From a virus, in the IMG/VR virus record IMGVR_UViG_3300034073_001729, positions 1 through 40,393 of that record: 40,393 nt of DNA; one strand, given 5' to 3'. Shown here piece after piece: positions 19,617 through 40,393 of the stretch. The notes below the pieces were generated by a model. The model saw only the letters and a list, made by a program, of their open reading frames with translations, did not search any database and was not told the origin of the DNA. Both the position numbers and the translations under genes were made by a program. Each line of letters starts with the position of its first letter. Position 1 is the first letter of the stretch.

Positions 19617-20020
19617 GCACCGGCTATCCCGTAAACCTGACGACCCTGATCAGCGGGGAAAACCAGTCGCTCGGCGTACTGGAGACTTCGTCGCCCGGTA
19701 CCTATGTCACCGCAGTCGGAGCAACAAGCGCAGCCGATATCGCTATCGGTAGCCCTGGCGCGGCGGGAGATAAACTGTTTGCTGTAGCTGTTTTCAACGG
19801 CAGTGCTCAACCGTTTACGGCGTTCTCAATCAAGGACGGATCAACAACCTTGACGGGGCTTACGAATTCAACGTTGACGACGTTGGCGGCTGGAGCAAAC
19901 GCTATCTATACCATGCCCGGCGGGTGCCTTGAGTCCAAAAACGGCGGGTGGAAAATCAACATCACTTGCACTGGAACGATGGCAAACATTGCCATCGTCG
20001 CGGTGGGGGCGTTTACCTGA
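19613..20020 (+). CDS. Small beta-rich virion protein
   Basis: Protein of 135 aa with Thr/Ser/Gly-rich beta-strand pattern (GYPVNLTTLISGENQSLGVLE, then TAFSIKDGSTTLTGLTNSTLTTL). No signal peptide or membrane helix. Composition and position between tail appendage genes suggest a virion component. I do not recognise a family. Both ends overlap neighbours (ATGA and TGATG), indicating translational coupling. Confidence 0.6.
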   Translation: MSTGYPVNLTTLISGENQSLGVLETSSPGTYVTAVGATSAADIAIGSPGAAGDKLFAVAVFNGSAQPFTAFSIKDGSTTLTGLTNSTLTTLAAGANAIYTMPGGCLESKNGGWKINITCTGTMANIAIVAVGAFT

Positions 20021-33211: not shown

Positions 33212-33692
33212 ACGGATGAAGACCAGGGTCGGTGACCGTCCGTCTAAGGGAACAAGGGGACGGCTACCAGAACCGGTTCCGGTTGAGCATGCTGATGCGA
33301 TTATCGAGTGGATCGCGCAGGGAAAGACGCTGCGACAGTGGTGTCGGGATCATGAGATCCATTACGGGACCGTCTACCTATGGCTGGCAAAGGACAAGAT
33401 TTTTGCTCAACGCTTCGCGGAGGCAAGGGCAATTGGGGCGGACTGCATTGCCGAGGAAGTGCTGGCAATTGCGGATACGACGCAGGAAGGCGTTACGACC
33501 AGAATCACTGAGCGCGGGGTCGAAGAGACCCGGGAGGATATGCTCGGGCATCGCAAGCTGCAGGTTGAGACGCGGCTTAAGTTGCTGGCCAAGTGGTTCC
33601 CGCAGAAGTACGGGGACAAGGTCGATCTGCAGCATGGTGGTTCGATCACGCTGACGGTGGCGACCGGCATCCCCGATGCAGAAGTCGATTGA
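33195..33692 (+). CDS. terS: Terminase small subunit
   Basis: Protein of 165 aa. HTH region EHADAIIEWIAQGKTLRQWCRDHEIHYGTVYLWLAKDKIFAQRFAEARAIGADCIAEEVLAIAD is the characteristic N-terminal DNA-binding domain of terminase small subunits of this type. The segment LGHRKLQVETRLKLLAKWFPQKYGDKVDLQHGG is a family hallmark. It recognises the packaging site and feeds DNA to the large subunit, whose gene overlaps by 17 nt. Two ATGs (MMN) are adjacent. Confidence 0.88.
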   Translation: MMNTAERMKTRVGDRPSKGTRGRLPEPVPVEHADAIIEWIAQGKTLRQWCRDHEIHYGTVYLWLAKDKIFAQRFAEARAIGADCIAEEVLAIADTTQEGVTTRITERGVEETREDMLGHRKLQVETRLKLLAKWFPQKYGDKVDLQHGGSITLTVATGIPDAEVD

Positions 33693-35007
33693 CCTAGGCT
33701 ACAGGCCGCGTCCCTGGCAGCTTGAGTGTCACAAGCAGCGCAAGCGATTCACTGTCCTGGCGCTGCATCGCCGCGCCGGCAAGACGGAACTGGCGCTGAT
33801 GGAGTTGATCGACAAGGCGCTCAAGTGCCGCAAGGAACTGGGCCTGTTCTTCTACGTCGCGCCGTTTCTAAAGCAGGCAAAGGCCATCGCTTGGCAGCGC
33901 CTGAAGACCAGGATAGAGCCGCTGCGGCAGGTCAATGCCGTGACGATCAGCGAGGTGGATCTGTCGGTCACGTTCCTGCACAACGGCGCAATGATCCGCG
34001 TGTTCGGGGCTGACAATCCGGATGCTGCGCGTGGTGTCCGCCTGGATGGCGTCGTGCTCGACGAGGTCGCTCAGATCAAGCCGGAGATCTGGCAAGACGT
34101 GCTTCAACCGGCGCTGTCAGACCGCCTGGGCTGGGCCATGATGATCGGCACACCCTCCGGCATCAACCTGTTCAGCGAGCTGTACTATCGGGCGCAGGAT
34201 CTGCCGGACTGGCATGCCGCGAGGTACACGGTCAACGATACCTCGGCCATGGATCCGCAGGAGGTGGAGCGCCTCCAGCGAGACATGAGCGAGGCCAGCT
34301 TCGCGCGCGAGTATCTGTGCGACTTCAGCGCTGCCGGCGACGACCAGTTGATCCCGCTGGCCCTGGCCGAGGAGGCCGCGCGGCGGACGTACAGCAAGGA
34401 CGCCATTGAGCATGCGCCGACGATCCTCGGCGTGGATCCGGCCCGGTTTGGTGACGACCGCAGCGTCATCGTGCGCCGCCAGGGGCTGCAGATGTTCGCA
34501 GCGACCGTCTACCGTGGCCTGGACAACATGGATCTGGCTGGCCGGGTGGCTGCGCAGATCATCGAGCATGAGCCGGATGCGGTGTTCATCGATTCCGGCG
34601 CCGGTGCCGGCGTCATCGACCGCCTGCGGCAGCTCGATCACGATGTCATCGAGGTTCCGTTCGGCGGGCGGGCCAATGCTGCCAACCTGTTCCTCAACCG
34701 CCGGGCCGAAATGTGGTGGTCCGTCCGCGAATGGCTGGAGCAAGGCGGGGCGATCCCGAATGACATCGGCCTGAAGCAGGAACTGGCCACGCCGATCTAC
34801 TGGTACGACCAGCAGGGGCGCCGGGTGCTTGAGCCGAAGGACCGCATCAAGGAGCGCTTGCAGGGCGGCGGGTCACCAGACATGGCCGACGCCCTGGCAC
34901 TCACGTTTGCGCATCCTGTCGGCAAGCGCCTGCCACGCGACATCTACGAGCGGGTGCGGCGCGCCAAGTCCGAAGAGTACGACCCGTATCGGGGCGTGTT
35001 GCAGTAG
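33676..35007 (+). CDS. terL: Terminase large subunit
   Basis: Protein of 443 aa. Walker A HRRAGKT (residues 31-37), Walker B VVLDE (126-130, with D129 and E130), and the RNase H-like nuclease with GVDPARFGDD (D254), VFIDSGAGAG (D306) and DMADALAL (D402 and D405). It powers DNA translocation into the head through the portal and cuts concatemers. Start codon and overlap with terS are normal. The packaging mode (headful or cohesive ends) cannot be told from motifs by eye. Confidence 0.93.
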   Translation: MQKSIDLGYRPRPWQLECHKQRKRFTVLALHRRAGKTELALMELIDKALKCRKELGLFFYVAPFLKQAKAIAWQRLKTRIEPLRQVNAVTISEVDLSVTFLHNGAMIRVFGADNPDAARGVRLDGVVLDEVAQIKPEIWQDVLQPALSDRLGWAMMIGTPSGINLFSELYYRAQDLPDWHAARYTVNDTSAMDPQEVERLQRDMSEASFAREYLCDFSAAGDDQLIPLALAEEAARRTYSKDAIEHAPTILGVDPARFGDDRSVIVRRQGLQMFAATVYRGLDNMDLAGRVAAQIIEHEPDAVFIDSGAGAGVIDRLRQLDHDVIEVPFGGRANAANLFLNRRAEMWWSVREWLEQGGAIPNDIGLKQELATPIYWYDQQGRRVLEPKDRIKERLQGGGSPDMADALALTFAHPVGKRLPRDIYERVRRAKSEEYDPYRGVLQ

Positions 35008-35040
35008 GGTGCCCGTGATTGATGGGCGGTCGGGTATGTT
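35008..35040 (+). promoter_or_regulatory. Candidate late promoter copy 2
   Basis: GGTGCCCGT (35008-35016), 18-nt spacer, TATGTT (35035-35040), immediately after the terL stop. Predicted start near 35047 and a 20-nt leader with AGGAGA before ATG 35067. It would drive the portal unit. Confidence 0.5.
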
Positions 35041-35066
35041 GGATGTAATGATCAGGAGATCAAACC

Positions 35067-35444
35067 ATGTTCGGATTTGACATCGGCGGTCTGCTTGGCG
35101 GTGCTATCGGAGGCCTCATCGGCGGCATCATGGGTCCACTTGGCAGTCTGGCCGGCGGCATGAAGGGCTATGCAAAGCGGTCGGATGTCGGCCGGCAAAT
35201 GAAGCACCAGTTGCAGCAACAGGAAGCTGCGCAGCGCCAGACCCTGGCGGCATCGGAGCGGCAGCGGCAGGTCAGCGAGCAGGCCATGAACCGTGCCAAC
35301 CAGCGTCAGCCCAATGTGCGCGGCATCATGGAAGGCGCGATGCAACAGGCTGCTGGTGGCCCGTCTGGCACGATGCTCACCGGGCCCTCCGGCATTGCGC
35401 CAGGAGATTTGAATTTAGGCAGAGCCACTCTTCTAGGCTCATAA
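35067..35444 (+). CDS. Glycine-zipper virion-associated protein
   Basis: Protein of 125 aa. The N-terminus is a glycine-zipper hydrophobic stretch (FDIGGLLGGAIGGLIGGIMGPLGSLAGG, about residues 4-32). A Gln-rich charged helix (QMKHQLQQQEAAQRQTLAASERQRQ) and a Gly/Pro tail ending ATLLGS follow. The same position between terL and portal holds similar small proteins in related phages. A membrane-active or core-filling virion protein is plausible but unproven. Confidence 0.6.
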   Translation: MFGFDIGGLLGGAIGGLIGGIMGPLGSLAGGMKGYAKRSDVGRQMKHQLQQQEAAQRQTLAASERQRQVSEQAMNRANQRQPNVRGIMEGAMQQAAGGPSGTMLTGPSGIAPGDLNLGRATLLGS

Positions 35445-35547
35445 ACAAGTGATTTTGCGCGCAGCTAGGTTAGCTCCCGAAAGCCGGTTTCCTGACCCGG
35501 TTGCTGCGTGCATTCATTTTGTCAGGTCGATCATTCAGGAGATCGAG
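35445..35547 (+). promoter_or_regulatory. Structured leader ahead of HNH gene
   Basis: GCGCGCAGC (35457-35465) can pair with GCTGCGTGC (35503-35511), 9 bp with one G-U. Inside lie CCGG segments (from 35484 and 35497) able to pair. AGCTA-GGT-TAGCT (35463-35475) is an alternative hairpin. The region is non-coding and probably came with the endonuclease. CAGGAGAT precedes ATG 35548. Confidence 0.4.
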
Positions 35548-36057
35548 ATGGCAGGAAAACTTAAAGACATTGCAGGCCAAAAATTCGGTCGTTTAACAGT
35601 TATTTATAGAGTGCCTCATGACGGTACGGCAAGAGTGGCAAAATGGTTGTGCGTATGCGAATGCGGGCATGAACACATAGCGTTTGGCAATCATTTGCGT
35701 TCTGGTGTAACTACAGAATGTACTGAATGCTGGCGTAGCAAAAGACCGAATCGCTATGAAACAAAAACGAGGCTTTATGGGATTTGGACTGGCATGCGTA
35801 AACGATGCCAGAATGAAGCCGTAGCTTCGTGGAAACATTACGGTGCAAAAGGCATCGCAGTGTGCGACGAATGGCAGGATTATCAAGCGTTCAAAGCGTG
35901 GGCGTTAACACATGGATATGCCAATGATTTGACGATTGAGCGAATCAATCCAAACATCGGATACATTCCATCAAATTGCGAATGGATTACCAAATCTGAA
36001 AACAGCAGACGTTGCTCAGTGTTGCGATGGGCGCGTGAAAAAGGAAAAGCAGCATGA
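35548..36057 (+). CDS. HNH-type homing endonuclease
   Basis: Protein of 169 aa from ATG 35548; the frame is open 33 codons upstream without a signal. GQKFGRLTVIYRV, a Cys pattern (CVCECGH...TECTEC), YGIWTGMRKRC, HYGAKGIAVCDEWQDYQAF and LTIERINPNIGYIPSNCEWI are the standard blocks of freestanding phage HNH endonucleases. Base composition is clearly more AT-rich than the flanking virion genes, a sign of lateral entry. It sits exactly between two structural genes, and its stop overlaps the portal start (ATGA), so portal translation is now coupled to it. Confidence 0.85.
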   Translation: MAGKLKDIAGQKFGRLTVIYRVPHDGTARVAKWLCVCECGHEHIAFGNHLRSGVTTECTECWRSKRPNRYETKTRLYGIWTGMRKRCQNEAVASWKHYGAKGIAVCDEWQDYQAFKAWALTHGYANDLTIERINPNIGYIPSNCEWITKSENSRRCSVLRWAREKGKAA

Positions 36058-37778
36058 GCCAATTCCCACGCGACACGCAGTCATATTCAAAAACGCCCAA
36101 GCGCGACAAGCTCTTCACCAGATGGGGCATGCTCAAGAGTGAGCGCGCTACCTTCTGGGCGCACTGGCAGGAACTGACCACCTATCTGCTGCCGCGCAAC
36201 GGGCGTTACTTCCGCCAGGATCGCAACCGTGGCGAGCGCCGCCATAACTCGATCTACGACAACTCCGGTACCAGGGCGCTGCGTGTGCTCGGTGCCGGCA
36301 TGATGGCCGGGGCGACCAGTCCTGCCAGACCCTGGTTCCGCCTCGGCACACCGGACCCGGAACTCAATGCCTTCCAGCCGGCGCGTCTCTGGCTAGACGA
36401 TGTCGGCCGCAGGATGCAGGGCATCTTCCAGCGCTCGAACGCGTATCGCGCCTTGCATCAGATGTACGAGGAACTCGGGTGCTTCGGCACCGCGTCGTCG
36501 CTGCTGCTGCCGGACTACGACAACGTCATCCATCTGTATCCCTCGACAGTCGGCGAGTTCGCCGTGGCGACCGACTACCAGGGACATGTCACCACGATCT
36601 ATCGCGAGTTCGAGAAGACCGTTGCCGAGTTGGTCTCTGAGTTCGGCCGCGAGAATTGCAGCCTGTCGGTGCGCAACCTGTACGACCGTGGCAATCTGGA
36701 TTCGTGGGTGCCGATCATCCATGCTGTCGAGCCGCGCGCTGATCGCGATGTCCGCAAGCGGGACTCGCTGAACATGCCCTGGCTGTCCTGCTACTTCGAG
36801 GTCGGTGGCGAGCCGGACAAGTTCCTGCGTGAGTCTGGCTACAAGTCATTCCCCGCTCTGGTGCCGCGCTGGGCCGTGGCCGGCGGCGATGTCTACGGAC
36901 ACTCACCCGGCATGGAAGCGCTCGGCGACATCAAGCAGCTCCAGCATGAGCAGCTACGCAAGGCGCAGGGCATCGACTACCAGACCAAGCCACCGCTGCA
37001 GGTGCCGGTCAGCATGAAGAACCGGGATGTCGAGACACTCCCTGGTGGCATCTCGTTCGTGGACATGAACAGCCCGTCTGGTGGCATCAAGACGGCGTTT
37101 GAGGTGCGGCTGGATCTCAACCATCTGCTGATGGACATCCAGGACGTGCGCGAGCGCATCCGTGGGGCGTTCTATGCCGACTTGTTCCTGATGCTGGCCA
37201 ATGCGACGGCTACGCGCATGACGGCGACCGAGGTTGCCGAGCGGCACGAAGAGAAGCTGCTGATGCTTGGCCCGGTGCTCGAGCGACTGCACAACGAGTT
37301 GCTCCAGCCGCTGATCGATACGACCTTCGAGCGCATGGTCGAGGCGAATCTGCTGCCGCCGCCGCCGCCAGAACTGGCCGGCATGGAGCTGCAGGTCGAG
37401 TTCGTTTCCATGCTGGCGCAGGCGCAGCGCGCGGTCGGCACAAACAGCGTGGACCGATTCGTGGGCAACCTGGGCGCCATCGCGCAGATGAAGCCAGATG
37501 TGCTTGACAAGTTCGACAGTGATGCCTGGGCAGATGCCTATGCCGACATGCTTGGAGTCGATCCGAAGATCATCGTTGCGAATGAGCAGGTCGCTGTCGT
37601 GCGGCAGGCTCGGGACCGTGCCATGGCTGCCCAGGCGGAAATGGCGGCCATGGAACAGCAGGCCAAGGTAGCGAAGGATCTAGCCGCCGCGCCGACCAAT
37701 GAGCCCAATGTGCTCATGGATGTGATGAACATGTTCTCCGGCTACGGCAGCCCGTCGGCGGTCGAGGTCGGACAGTAA
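36054..37778 (+). CDS. Portal protein
   Basis: Protein of 574 aa. Early motifs RDKLFTRWGMLKSERATFWAHWQELTTYLLPRNGR and LGAGMMAGATSPARPWFRL are typical of podovirus head-tail connectors. QLQHEQLRKAQGIDYQTKPPLQVP and RTAFEV/NATATRMTATEVAERHEEKL-type blocks also match the family. The C-terminus is an Ala/Met-rich helix (ARDRAMAAQAEMAAMEQQAKVAKDL), the barrel-like extension. Twelve copies would form the DNA channel at one head vertex. It follows the HNH gene with a 4-nt overlap. Confidence 0.92.
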   Translation: MSQFPRDTQSYSKTPKRDKLFTRWGMLKSERATFWAHWQELTTYLLPRNGRYFRQDRNRGERRHNSIYDNSGTRALRVLGAGMMAGATSPARPWFRLGTPDPELNAFQPARLWLDDVGRRMQGIFQRSNAYRALHQMYEELGCFGTASSLLLPDYDNVIHLYPSTVGEFAVATDYQGHVTTIYREFEKTVAELVSEFGRENCSLSVRNLYDRGNLDSWVPIIHAVEPRADRDVRKRDSLNMPWLSCYFEVGGEPDKFLRESGYKSFPALVPRWAVAGGDVYGHSPGMEALGDIKQLQHEQLRKAQGIDYQTKPPLQVPVSMKNRDVETLPGGISFVDMNSPSGGIKTAFEVRLDLNHLLMDIQDVRERIRGAFYADLFLMLANATATRMTATEVAERHEEKLLMLGPVLERLHNELLQPLIDTTFERMVEANLLPPPPPELAGMELQVEFVSMLAQAQRAVGTNSVDRFVGNLGAIAQMKPDVLDKFDSDAWADAYADMLGVDPKIIVANEQVAVVRQARDRAMAAQAEMAAMEQQAKVAKDLAAAPTNEPNVLMDVMNMFSGYGSPSAVEVGQ

Positions 37779-37787
37779 GGGGGCGCC

Positions 37788-37916
37788 ATGCCAGCACGAT
37801 CAGCAAAGCAAGCCGCGCTCATGCGCGCCGTCGCCCACAGTGCCAAGTTCGCCAAAAAGGTCGGCATCCCGCAGTCGGTCGGGCGCGAGTACAGCAAGAA
37901 GCCGAAGAAGAAATGA
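37788..37916 (+). CDS. Small basic protein after portal
   Basis: Protein of 42 aa (MPARSAKQAALMRAVAHSAKFAKK then VGIPQSVGREYSKKPKKK), strongly basic. The pattern MPA.S..Q..LM.AVAH...F.KKVGIPQSVG.E recurs in very small phage proteins near portal genes. GGGGGCGCC precedes the ATG and the stop overlaps the next ATG. It may bind DNA or the acidic surface of a virion protein. Function unknown. Confidence 0.65.
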   Translation: MPARSAKQAALMRAVAHSAKFAKKVGIPQSVGREYSKKPKKK

Positions 37917-38206
37917 TGCTGCTGCACCTCGGTGACCCCCCGGCTGGTTGGGAGCGGGTGCCGGGGTTTGAGGGGTTCATCCGCGAGATCGTCGTCGTCC
38001 CTTCGAAGGATGGCGAGCAGGGCCCACCTGGGCCGCAGGGTGAGCGTGGCGAACCTGGGCGCGATGCCGACCCGGAGCAGGTATTGGCGGTAGTGGCGCA
38101 GGCCGTCGATAAATATCGCGAGAAGGAGCTAACGCAAACTAAGGGAGTAATTGCGGCATTCTGGGGTAAATGGCAAAATAAAGCCTCCAACAAGGAGGCT
38201 TTATGA
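37913..38206 (+). CDS. Collagen-like fibre protein, N-terminal part
   Basis: Protein of 97 aa. An N-terminal segment (LLHLGDPPAGWERVPGFEGFIREIVVVPSK) is followed by a Gly-X-Y stretch (DGEQGPPGPQGERGEPGRDA) and a helical part DPEQVLAVVAQAVDKYREKEL. The last 20 or so residues (GVIAAFWGKWQNKASNKEAL) read differently and come from the inserted endonuclease segment. The gene at 38870 is in the same frame and carries another Gly-X-Y stretch, so this looks like the 5' piece of one interrupted fibre gene. The stop is inside a hairpin. Confidence 0.65.
   Translation: MMLLHLGDPPAGWERVPGFEGFIREIVVVPSKDGEQGPPGPQGERGEPGRDADPEQVLAVVAQAVDKYREKELTQTKGVIAAFWGKWQNKASNKEAL
38178..38204 (+). promoter_or_regulatory. 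Hairpin covering RBS and start of the GIY-YIG gene
   Basis: ATAAAGCCTCC (38178-38188) pairs perfectly with GGAGGCTTTAT (38194-38204) around a 5-nt loop AACAA. The 3' arm holds both GGAGG (the ribosome-binding site) and the first two bases of ATG 38203. It should repress translation when formed. It also resembles a terminator stem with a weak T tract. Confidence 0.8.
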
Positions 38207-38877
38207 ACTGGCAAAAGGTAAGCAAGCAACTACAGGCGGCCGACTATCCGTTTTTTGTGGTGCGGCGACTGGGCATATCGATGAGCGCAGAATTGGTCAG
38301 GATGTGCGACATCAGTGTCGGCGTGAGTCGCGCAGAGATTTATTGTGACCGCGCCAACAATGCCTATGGATTGAGGTTCGTAAACATCGTGACGCCAGAT
38401 TCCTATGTCATAACGTCGGATGGCGGCGGACGCAAAGCGGATTCCTCGAAGAAAACCAACACGGCATTTATTGCGTGCGGTCGTATCGTCAGTACGAATC
38501 CTGCCTTGTTGGCAGAGGCACAATCTGGCAAGAAAACACGATTGCCTGCATTGTTCGACAAAGACAATAGCATCGTGTACTTCAGAGTCGGGCCTACGTT
38601 CGAGCACAAATACTCTGAGCGTCGTCCGCAAGGCAATGAGCGAGGCGTGTATCGCTACATGCTAGACGGTGAGGCGGTTTACATCGGGCAAGGCGCGCTG
38701 CAAGAACGATTGGCTTCGAAGGAACGTGAAACCTGGAAGTATGACGACATCGAATACATGATTGTCGATGATGAGGAAAAGCGGTTTTCCGTTGAAGCTG
38801 GGTTGATTGACGAAATTAGGCAAACCACTGGCCGGTTGCCTTTTTACAATCGTGTCGGAGGTCGTCGCATTGAATGA
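38203..38877 (+). CDS. GIY-YIG homing endonuclease
   Basis: Protein of 224 aa. The C-terminal third carries GVYRYMLDGEAVYIGQG: GVY at 148-150 and YIG at 160-162. R169 (QERL) and E198 (FSVEAGLIDEI) match the catalytic Arg and Glu, and FYNRVGG ends the domain. Residues 1-140 have no recognised fold and probably recognise DNA. Base composition is lower in GC than the flanks. It lies between two pieces of a collagen-like gene and is controlled by a hairpin over its start, as in known phage endonucleases of this class. It likely spreads by cutting uninterrupted relatives. Confidence 0.82.
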   Translation: MNWQKVSKQLQAADYPFFVVRRLGISMSAELVRMCDISVGVSRAEIYCDRANNAYGLRFVNIVTPDSYVITSDGGGRKADSSKKTNTAFIACGRIVSTNPALLAEAQSGKKTRLPALFDKDNSIVYFRVGPTFEHKYSERRPQGNERGVYRYMLDGEAVYIGQGALQERLASKERETWKYDDIEYMIVDDEEKRFSVEAGLIDEIRQTTGRLPFYNRVGGRRIE

Positions 38878-39340
38878 CCAGACACCGGGCGGCGTCCTTG
38901 CGGAATGGTTGGTCGAGGCTGTTCCGTTACTCATCTCGGACGAAGTCTCCAAGCTGCCGAAGCCGAAGGATGGCCGCGACGGTCGTCCCGGCACGGACGG
39001 CAAGCCGGGGCGTGATGGCCAGGACGGCGCCCCTGGTGTCGGCATCGACGACATCAAGGCCTATGGCCAAGACATGCTGGTGGCGCTGTCTGACGGCACC
39101 GAAAAGCGGTTTCGTCTGCCGGGTGGCGGCAGTGCTGCATTCGGTGGTGGCGGTGGTGGTGGTGCATCGACCCTGGCGGCGCTCACCGATACCGATGTTG
39201 CCGGCGCTGTCGATGGCCAGAAGCTGATGTACGACGGCGGTCTCGCCAAGTGGGTGCCGGTGACGAGCGCGACTGTCACGGTGTCGGCGACGGCCCCGCT
39301 TAATCCCAGGGTCGGCGACCTCTGGATCGACATCTCATAG
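38870..39340 (+). CDS. Collagen-like fibre protein, C-terminal part
   Basis: Protein of 156 aa if started at TTG 38870, which has GGAGG 8 nt upstream and overlaps the endonuclease stop. An ATG at 38807 in the same frame is buried in the endonuclease. It has VLAEWLVEAVPLLISDEVSKLPKPK, a Gly-X-Y run (DGRDGRPGTDGKPGRDGQDGAPG), then a Gly-rich linker and a small beta-domain (PLNPRVGDLWIDIS). The VLAEWLVEAV helix next to Gly-X-Y mirrors the helix at the end of the N-terminal piece. It is probably the second half of a split fibre protein. Confidence 0.6.
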   Translation: MNDQTPGGVLAEWLVEAVPLLISDEVSKLPKPKDGRDGRPGTDGKPGRDGQDGAPGVGIDDIKAYGQDMLVALSDGTEKRFRLPGGGSAAFGGGGGGGASTLAALTDTDVAGAVDGQKLMYDGGLAKWVPVTSATVTVSATAPLNPRVGDLWIDIS

Positions 39341-39349
39341 GAGTGACAA

Positions 39350-39751
39350 GTGGCAAACGCGATCTACCCTAAGTACAAGCAGGCGCTGCTTGATGCGTCA
39401 GCAAACACGGACCTCAATGACGGCACGGTCAAAGTGGCGCTGGTGGATACCGGCACCTACACCTACAACAGCGCGCATGAGTTCTACAGCAGCCTGTCTG
39501 GCGTCGTCGGCACACCGCAGGAGATCCTGAATACGACCGTCACCGATGGCGTGTTCGATGGTGACAATGTCACCTTCACGGCTGTGTCTGGCAACAGCGT
39601 CGAGGCCCTAGTCATCTACATCGACACGGGCAACACTGGCACCTCGCGTCTAGTGGCGTACATTGATACCAGCGTGACGGGCCTGCCGGTCCCGCCGAAT
39701 GGCGGGGACATTTCGATCACCTGGAACGCCAGCGGGATCTTCGCTCTTTGA
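39350..39751 (+). CDS. Phage structural protein, fibre region
   Basis: Protein of 133 aa starting at GTG 39350 with AGGAG upstream. The opening ANAIYPKYKQALLDASANTDLNDGTVKVALVDTGTYTYNSAHEFYSSL is a widely conserved phage motif. The ending ISITWNASGIFAL is equally typical. Beta-rich throughout. Found beside fibre and collagen-like genes in many proteobacterial podophages; the precise location in the virion is unknown to me. Confidence 0.7.
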   Translation: MANAIYPKYKQALLDASANTDLNDGTVKVALVDTGTYTYNSAHEFYSSLSGVVGTPQEILNTTVTDGVFDGDNVTFTAVSGNSVEALVIYIDTGNTGTSRLVAYIDTSVTGLPVPPNGGDISITWNASGIFAL

Positions 39752-39754
39752 GTA

Positions 39755-40006
39755 ATGACGCGGTATTCAAACTGCCTCATCTTTGCGCTGATGCTCTGGC
39801 GACGCCAGGGAGGCTATTTGATTGTCCGCAAGAGCCGCTACACCTGGGTGCCGCACTTCATGTGGGCACGATCCATTGAGGGCCTCGACATCGTGGAATA
39901 CAAACCAGTGACACCCAAACACGGTCGGCTATTCCGACTGTTCCCGCTGCATGTCCTGCTGTTCCGGGGGCGCGTGCGGCGGGGGCAAGGTGAGGAAGAA
40001 GAATGA
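39755..40006 (+). CDS. Small basic hypothetical protein
   Basis: Protein of 83 aa. RYSNCLIFALMLWRRQGGYLIVRKSRYTWVPHFMW is a pattern I know from small phage proteins encoded next to tail-fibre genes. A PLHVLLFRGRVRRGQGEEEE tail follows. Basic, one short hydrophobic stretch, no signal peptide. The stop overlaps the next ATG. Function unknown. Confidence 0.65.
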   Translation: MTRYSNCLIFALMLWRRQGGYLIVRKSRYTWVPHFMWARSIEGLDIVEYKPVTPKHGRLFRLFPLHVLLFRGRVRRGQGEEEE

Positions 40007-40393
40007 GCCTGCATCGCAACCGCGTACAGATGACAGTGACCGGCACGCCCGGCACCGGCACCATCACGCTTAACGCAGCGACCTCTGGCTATCAGTCGTT
40101 CGGCACTGCCTACAGCAGTGCCAACGCTACGGTGGACATCCTTATTACCGAGGGCACGTCGTGGGAAGTTGCTCGCAACTGCACCTACACGCACAGCGGC
40201 ACCACGGTGTCCCGAGGCACGTTTGAAGCGTCCAGCAGCGGCAGCGCGGTGTCGTTCACCAGCGCAGCGATTGTCAGCGTCATCGCCACGGCAGCAAGCG
40301 GCAACAACTGGGGCCTCAACGAGGTGCAGTCCAACGCCAACGCAGCCGTCACGGGCGTTGTCGGCACGATGCACATCCTCGACATTGGACCCT
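40003..40393 (+). CDS. Phage structural protein, 3' end outside window
   Basis: 130 complete codons are visible from ATG 40003, no stop before the edge. SLHRNRVQMTVTGTPGTGTITLNAATSGYQSFG followed by VDILITEGTSWEVARNCTYTHSGTTVSRG is a strongly conserved beta-rich phage protein of the fibre region. The frame at the right edge continues without a stop into the partial gene at positions 3-386 if the two ends are joined. Confidence 0.7.
   Translation, partial: MSLHRNRVQMTVTGTPGTGTITLNAATSGYQSFGTAYSSANATVDILITEGTSWEVARNCTYTHSGTTVSRGTFEASSSGSAVSFTSAAIVSVIATAASGNNWGLNEVQSNANAAVTGVVGTMHILDIGP

Follow-up and report, generated by a model that had tools for sequence, protein, structure and literature searches.

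Does the cassette downstream of the portal gene in this uncultured bacterial virus hold one collagen-like fibre gene split by an endonuclease gene, or two neighbouring genes that an endonuclease gene has come to separate? The window analysed here was the whole 40,393-base virus record IMGVR_UViG_3300034073_001729 (positions 1 to 40,393). Its terminase-portal block (33676–37778) is of the type found in podoviruses like Bordetella phage BPP-1. The portal or head-tail connector gene (36054–37778, + strand) served as the query for relatives; its product shares 73–77% identity with those of many IMG/VR contigs and of phages including Limnohabitans phage DC33. An ORF leaves the window at its right end (40003–40393) and resumes in frame at the left end (1–384), and the gene at 936–1508 matches the gene following the portal region in DC33 (L085). 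The record is therefore very probably a circular map, with no end repeats. The DC33 record (PQ492659.1) places that phage in Inoviridae, despite its tailed-phage portal gene and BPP-1-type neighbours. The region after the portal (37778–39340) is a variable cassette, in which relatives have other small genes, not collagen genes. A 42-aa ORF at 37788 has a relative in a few of these loci (L167, L168, L172, L215 and probably L020). Downstream of the cassette lies a gene assigned by profile match to PHROG family 644 (39350–39751, + strand). Phages whose portals are unrelated carry it at 68–86% identity, and many mycobacteriophages have relatives of it, some annotated as minor tail protein, so it seems to move as a module.

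Three + strand ORFs make up the locus. ORF1 (37913–38206; 97 aa, ATG start) would be the N-terminal half of the fibre gene, the middle ORF (38203–38877; 224 aa) a putative GIY-YIG homing endonuclease gene, and ORF3 (38870–39340; 156 aa from a TTG) the C-terminal half. The open frame of ORF3 reaches back to another TTG at 38807. ORF1 overlaps the middle ORF by 4 nt (ATGA), and the middle ORF overlaps ORF3 by 8 nt, with zero non-coding flank. The initial annotation had placed ORF1 and ORF3 in one frame and counted this towards a split. Both coordinates and frame were confirmed; the argument from them was rejected, because two gene halves can be parted by an insertion of whatever length, and under either reading the chance of a shared frame is 1 in 3.

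Gly-X-Y runs are present in both pieces as described, with six consecutive triplets in ORF1 (GEQ GPP GPQ GER GEP GRD) and seven in ORF3 (GRD GRP GTD GKP GRD GQD GAP). The first 65 residues of ORF1 appear native and comprise the N-terminus, the triplets and a D-ADPE helix. In ORF3 the order is a helix, LPKPKDG, the triplets and a C-terminal domain. The Pfam Collagen profile matched ORF1 below threshold (E 0.0049). Helices adjoin the Gly-X-Y runs in both ORFs, as modules of the kind seen in L103 and L226, and a P..VLA helix is present separately in each. The proposed restart of ORF3 at a TTG was also borne out: a candidate ribosome site, GGAGG (38857–38861, + strand, read from the sequence), lies 8 nt before the TTG at 38870 and is encoded by the V-G-G codons of the terminal YNRVGG motif of the nuclease.

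The middle ORF probably has a GIY-YIG nuclease fold. An N-terminal region of ~140 aa without an assigned domain is followed by a C-terminal GVYRYMLDGEAVYIGQ...R...E...YNRVGG. The GIY and YIG motifs are ~10 residues apart in GVYRYMLDGEAVYIG (residues 148–162), and across residues 148–220 GVY, YIG, Arg, Glu and YN..GG are ordered as in GIY-YIG endonucleases, with R in LQERLA, E198 in VEAGLIDE and N216 in FYNRVGG. A C-terminal Asn in this domain is characteristic of the UvrC/homing lineage (PMC1564403). No second match to the ordered motif set was found among ~13,270 ORFs of the window and fetched loci. A PDB sequence search returned UvrC GIY-YIG domains as three of four matches, these three being weak (E about 1; UvrC E 1.1). 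The middle ORF had no significant match in Pfam (including PF01541), NCBIfam or PHROGs, and a small T4-based GIY-YIG HMM scored it no higher than shuffles. T4 SegF, which is an active GIY-YIG endonuclease (PMC2988022) and served as a control, was also missed by Pfam. AlphaFold prediction without relatives gave pLDDT values of 33 for the whole nuclease and 42 for its C-terminal domain, too low for a fold search. Neither a NUMOD nor a zinc-finger part was found in the middle ORF, and searches of phage records, IMG/VR and GTDB genomes yielded no relatives of it. Partner domains of GIY-YIG nucleases occur on either side of the nuclease domain (PMC1564403). The GIY-YIG identity first proposed thus stands on the ordered motif residues and the weak UvrC match, with no profile match behind it. 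We infer nuclease activity and homing from these motifs, and regard the product as a putative homing endonuclease.

Composition located the edges of the insert. A two-state GC fit over 37913–39340 (log-likelihood gain 20.5), together with codon usage, delimited a low-GC inserted segment at 38109–38882 on the + strand. The maximum-likelihood left edge was 38109 (range 38075–38114), and the best right edge was 38882 (range 38846–38975). On this basis the left edge falls in the ORF1 coding sequence, after V65 of ...GRDADPEQVLAVVAQAV. The ORF1 tail has a GC of 0.458, which places it among the lowest 0.4% of equal windows, and codon usage in ORF1 becomes nuclease-like after ~38120. Because the low-GC segment begins within ORF1, the last ~31 codons of this ORF seem to have come with the insert, and ORF1 appears truncated by the insertion. 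The foreign composition of the middle ORF is supported; ORF3, in contrast to the nuclease, matches the high GC and codon usage of the rest of the genome.

A spliced group I intron or intein is very improbable here. Introns often house homing endonucleases. The tape measure gene of ICP1 provides an example of splicing in a phage gene (PMC10448857). However, the insert holds only ~94 nt before and ~5 nt after the nuclease ORF, leaving no room for an intron core, and no Rfam intron family matched it even at E 10; the initial annotation had likewise found the flanks too short for such a core. An intein is excluded, as stops close the frames. Fusion of unrelated phage pieces in assembly is scarcely credible: the record is metagenome-derived and the GC change sharp, but the ORFs are locked together by overlaps of 4 and 8 nt, their ribosome sites are positioned to serve one another, and gene order is unbroken on both sides and around the circle.

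The same genome carries a second nuclease gene, of the HNH type (35449–36057; PHROG 374, E 3.8e-50), with low GC3. It is intergenic: upstream lies an intact small structural gene, which retains a C-terminus, GRATLLGS, that is conserved in relatives, and downstream lies the portal gene. The fetched portal loci contained no relative of the HNH gene. Codons at the end of its upstream neighbour (35400–35444) are AT-rich, yet the encoded C-terminus is conserved, as though co-conversion from another phage had affected this flank. With the neighbours of the HNH gene intact and an insert edge in ORF1, this genome would hold one nuclease gene between genes and the other inside a gene.

The architecture of collagen-like proteins in relatives bears directly on whether ORF1 and ORF3 were once joined. 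Collagen-linker-collagen arrangements occur within single ORFs in L103, L225/L226 and L231, where the helix linkers end in LPxPKDG-like stretches. D-ADPE-type linkers of L103 and L225 measure 19–28 aa and are followed by the next collagen block in all eight cases; longer continuations were seen in L091, L098, L100 and one further L103 linker. ORF1 ends in the first part of such a D-ADPE-helix-LPxPKDG linker, and ORF3 starts with the last part. The summed native linker here is ~46 aa, against 19–28 aa in L103/L225. This excess would vanish if the insert covers the first 25 or so codons of ORF3, which the right-edge range to 38975 allows.

Synteny points the same way. In L106 and L125 one ORF lies directly upstream of the homologue of the 39350 gene and matches ORF1 and then the ORF3 C-terminus, collinear with both halves. 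In L143/L144 a single collagen gene occupies the position just upstream of this homologue; it is ORF3-like, being helix-first with one collagen block. All relatives compared are distant (28–50% identical, partly over low-complexity stretches), and the collagen matches themselves are low-complexity. Portal relatives, which lack any collagen gene at the site, cannot test the split. A close relative with an unsplit gene was found neither when ORF1, ORF3 and the nuclease were compared with phage records by tblastn, nor by peptide-pattern scans of IMG/VR and GTDB genomes, nor in searches of 50 related virus records. A tblastn search with the L103 repeats gave no match, probably owing to the low-complexity filter, and L216 was discarded as a chance match. 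The uninterrupted relatives that the initial annotation proposed to look for are therefore represented by the distant single ORFs of L106 and L125, and by no close allele.

We consider it probable that a single collagen-like fibre gene was split by a free-standing GIY-YIG-type endonuclease gene, because the insert edge in ORF1, the modular collagen-linker architecture and the synteny in L106, L125 and L143/L144 all favour one gene. With no close relative found, some weight stays with a different history, in which two native collagen-like genes lay adjacent and the nuclease entered the gap, replacing the end of the first only. We hold this to be unlikely. Entry into gaps is the habit of most free-standing phage homing endonucleases, with 12 in T4 intergenic (PMC2988022). 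Helices of similar form occur in both ORF1 and ORF3, which would suit two complete genes; the single-block, helix-first gene of L143/L144 stands alone before the 39350 homologue; and one genome (G036, that of L143) has a pair of collagen genes, albeit separated by about 2.8 kb. Against it, the 3' end of ORF1 is foreign, so that a native end would have been lost, and the end of ORF1 and start of ORF3 are complementary parts of a linker found inside single ORFs. Nor were two adjacent collagen genes seen before the 39350 homologue in any of the relatives compared (L106, L125, L143, L144). Two separate genes in endonuclease-free relatives, the outcome named at the outset as counting against a split, did not appear: one collagen gene precedes the homologue, in relatives that are distant.

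A history of module shuffling would instead have ORF3 and the nuclease arrive jointly from another phage and replace the 3' portion of a collagen gene already resident there, the halves never having been one gene in this lineage. Nuclease genes do mark exchange boundaries between phages (PMC10448857). The 39350 gene is found across unrelated phages, and the whole collagen cassette is absent from portal relatives. ORF3, however, has the GC and codon usage of the rest of the genome, unlike the nuclease, and we regard shuffling as quite improbable.

If one fibre gene was split, the insert would also have brought the means to regulate its own expression. An 11-bp perfect hairpin, AUAAAGCCUCC-AACAA-GGAGGCUUUAU (38178–38204, + strand), covers the Shine-Dalgarno sequence and start of the endonuclease gene. 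It is the longest perfect hairpin in the genome (loop 3–10), with a folding energy of -19.8 kcal/mol (z -4.46). The second-longest (19976–19998; 10 bp, loop 3) lies at a structural-gene junction. The predicted endonuclease Shine-Dalgarno, AAGGAGG (38192–38198, + strand), is contained in the loop and 3' arm. Hairpins covering ribosome-binding sites are known for I-TevI, I-TevII, I-TevIII, segB and Aeh1 mobE (PMC2988022). A role as a + strand terminator was set aside, as only three T follow the G+C part of the stem and the scan did not list it. A scan of 37700–39400 for promoters of the sigma-70-like type found none. The ORF1 reading frame runs across the hairpin to a stop that overlaps the nuclease ATG; coupling of nuclease translation to the terminating ORF1 ribosome is therefore a natural reading of the sequence.

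We propose that a GIY-YIG-type endonuclease gene entered a collagen-like fibre gene in a helical linker between two collagen blocks, a place perhaps tolerant of interruption. The insert would have given the N-terminal half a stop and a foreign tail of ~31 codons, and would have brought a hairpin that masks the ribosome site of the endonuclease, making the gene self-limiting. Its last codons would carry GGAGG and the TTG for restart of the C-terminal half. The three ORFs could then be read as a translationally coupled series: ribosomes ending ORF1 would pass through and open the hairpin and restart at the overlapping ATG, and those ending the nuclease would restart at the TTG. The two half products may assemble into a working fibre. 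We offer only tentatively the full scheme, in which translation of the fibre N-terminal half gates the nuclease through hairpin opening by ORF1 readthrough and restart at the ATG, the nuclease YN..GG codons provide the ribosome site of the C-terminal half, and the virion fibre is made as two linked pieces joining via the split helical linker. A hairpin with an overlapping start would be a simple route by which a selfish gene could restrain its own expression and yet restart the gene that it interrupts.

The initial annotation called the splitting of a gene by a free-standing endonuclease rare, with Aeh1 nrdA/mobE as the precedent. This was overstated; T4 gene 60/mobA and Aeromonas phage 25 gene 43/seg43 are further cases (PMC2988022), as are genes interrupted by homing endonucleases in the Pseudomonas podophages ZC03/ZC08 (PMC5418858). 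Aeh1 nrdA, split by mobE, resembles the present locus, as interpreted here, in having a free-standing endonuclease in coding sequence, no splicing, two ORFs and a hairpin over the endonuclease ribosome-binding site (PMC2988022). It differs in that MobE is an HNH enzyme and its target an enzyme proven to function in pieces, whereas here the nuclease is GIY-YIG-like by its motifs and the target would be a fibre gene. The Aeh1 hairpin is also paired with a late promoter; here the promoter scan gave no sigma-70-like candidate, and we propose translational coupling. T4 gene 60/39-mobA and phage 25 gene 43A/43B-seg43 likewise have a gene split at a homing endonuclease, GIY-YIG in the case of seg43 (PMC2988022), but these are replication enzymes. 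For gene 43A/43B the order of events is itself uncertain (PMC2988022).

In ZC03/ZC08, podophage genes are similarly predicted to be in two pieces with a homing endonuclease between them; those endonucleases are HNH, and their targets are RNA polymerase, reductase and ATPase-domain genes, with no fibres among them (PMC5418858). The T4 Seg endonucleases and I-TevI share with the middle ORF the ordered GIY...YIG, Glu and terminal YN..GG residues. Their nuclease domain is N-terminal, whereas that of the middle ORF would be C-terminal and lacks a recognizable NUMOD or zinc-finger partner. The phage collagen-like fibre proteins of L103, L106, L125 and L226 share Gly-X-Y blocks with ORF1 and ORF3. 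D-ADPE-type helix linkers are common to L103, L226 and this locus, and L106 and L125 have the same C-terminal GGG...LDD/TDTD..DG motif and the same downstream gene. Unlike the locus described here, all four are single uninterrupted ORFs with longer collagen blocks. No description of a collagen-like fibre gene split by an endonuclease turned up in full-text searches of the open-licence literature. Accounts of homing endonucleases in coding sequence without splicing mostly concern replication enzymes with parts able to pair, and a fibre made up of separable collagen modules would add another kind of tolerant target. That free-standing endonucleases can split genes is already known; the fibre gene would be the new target.
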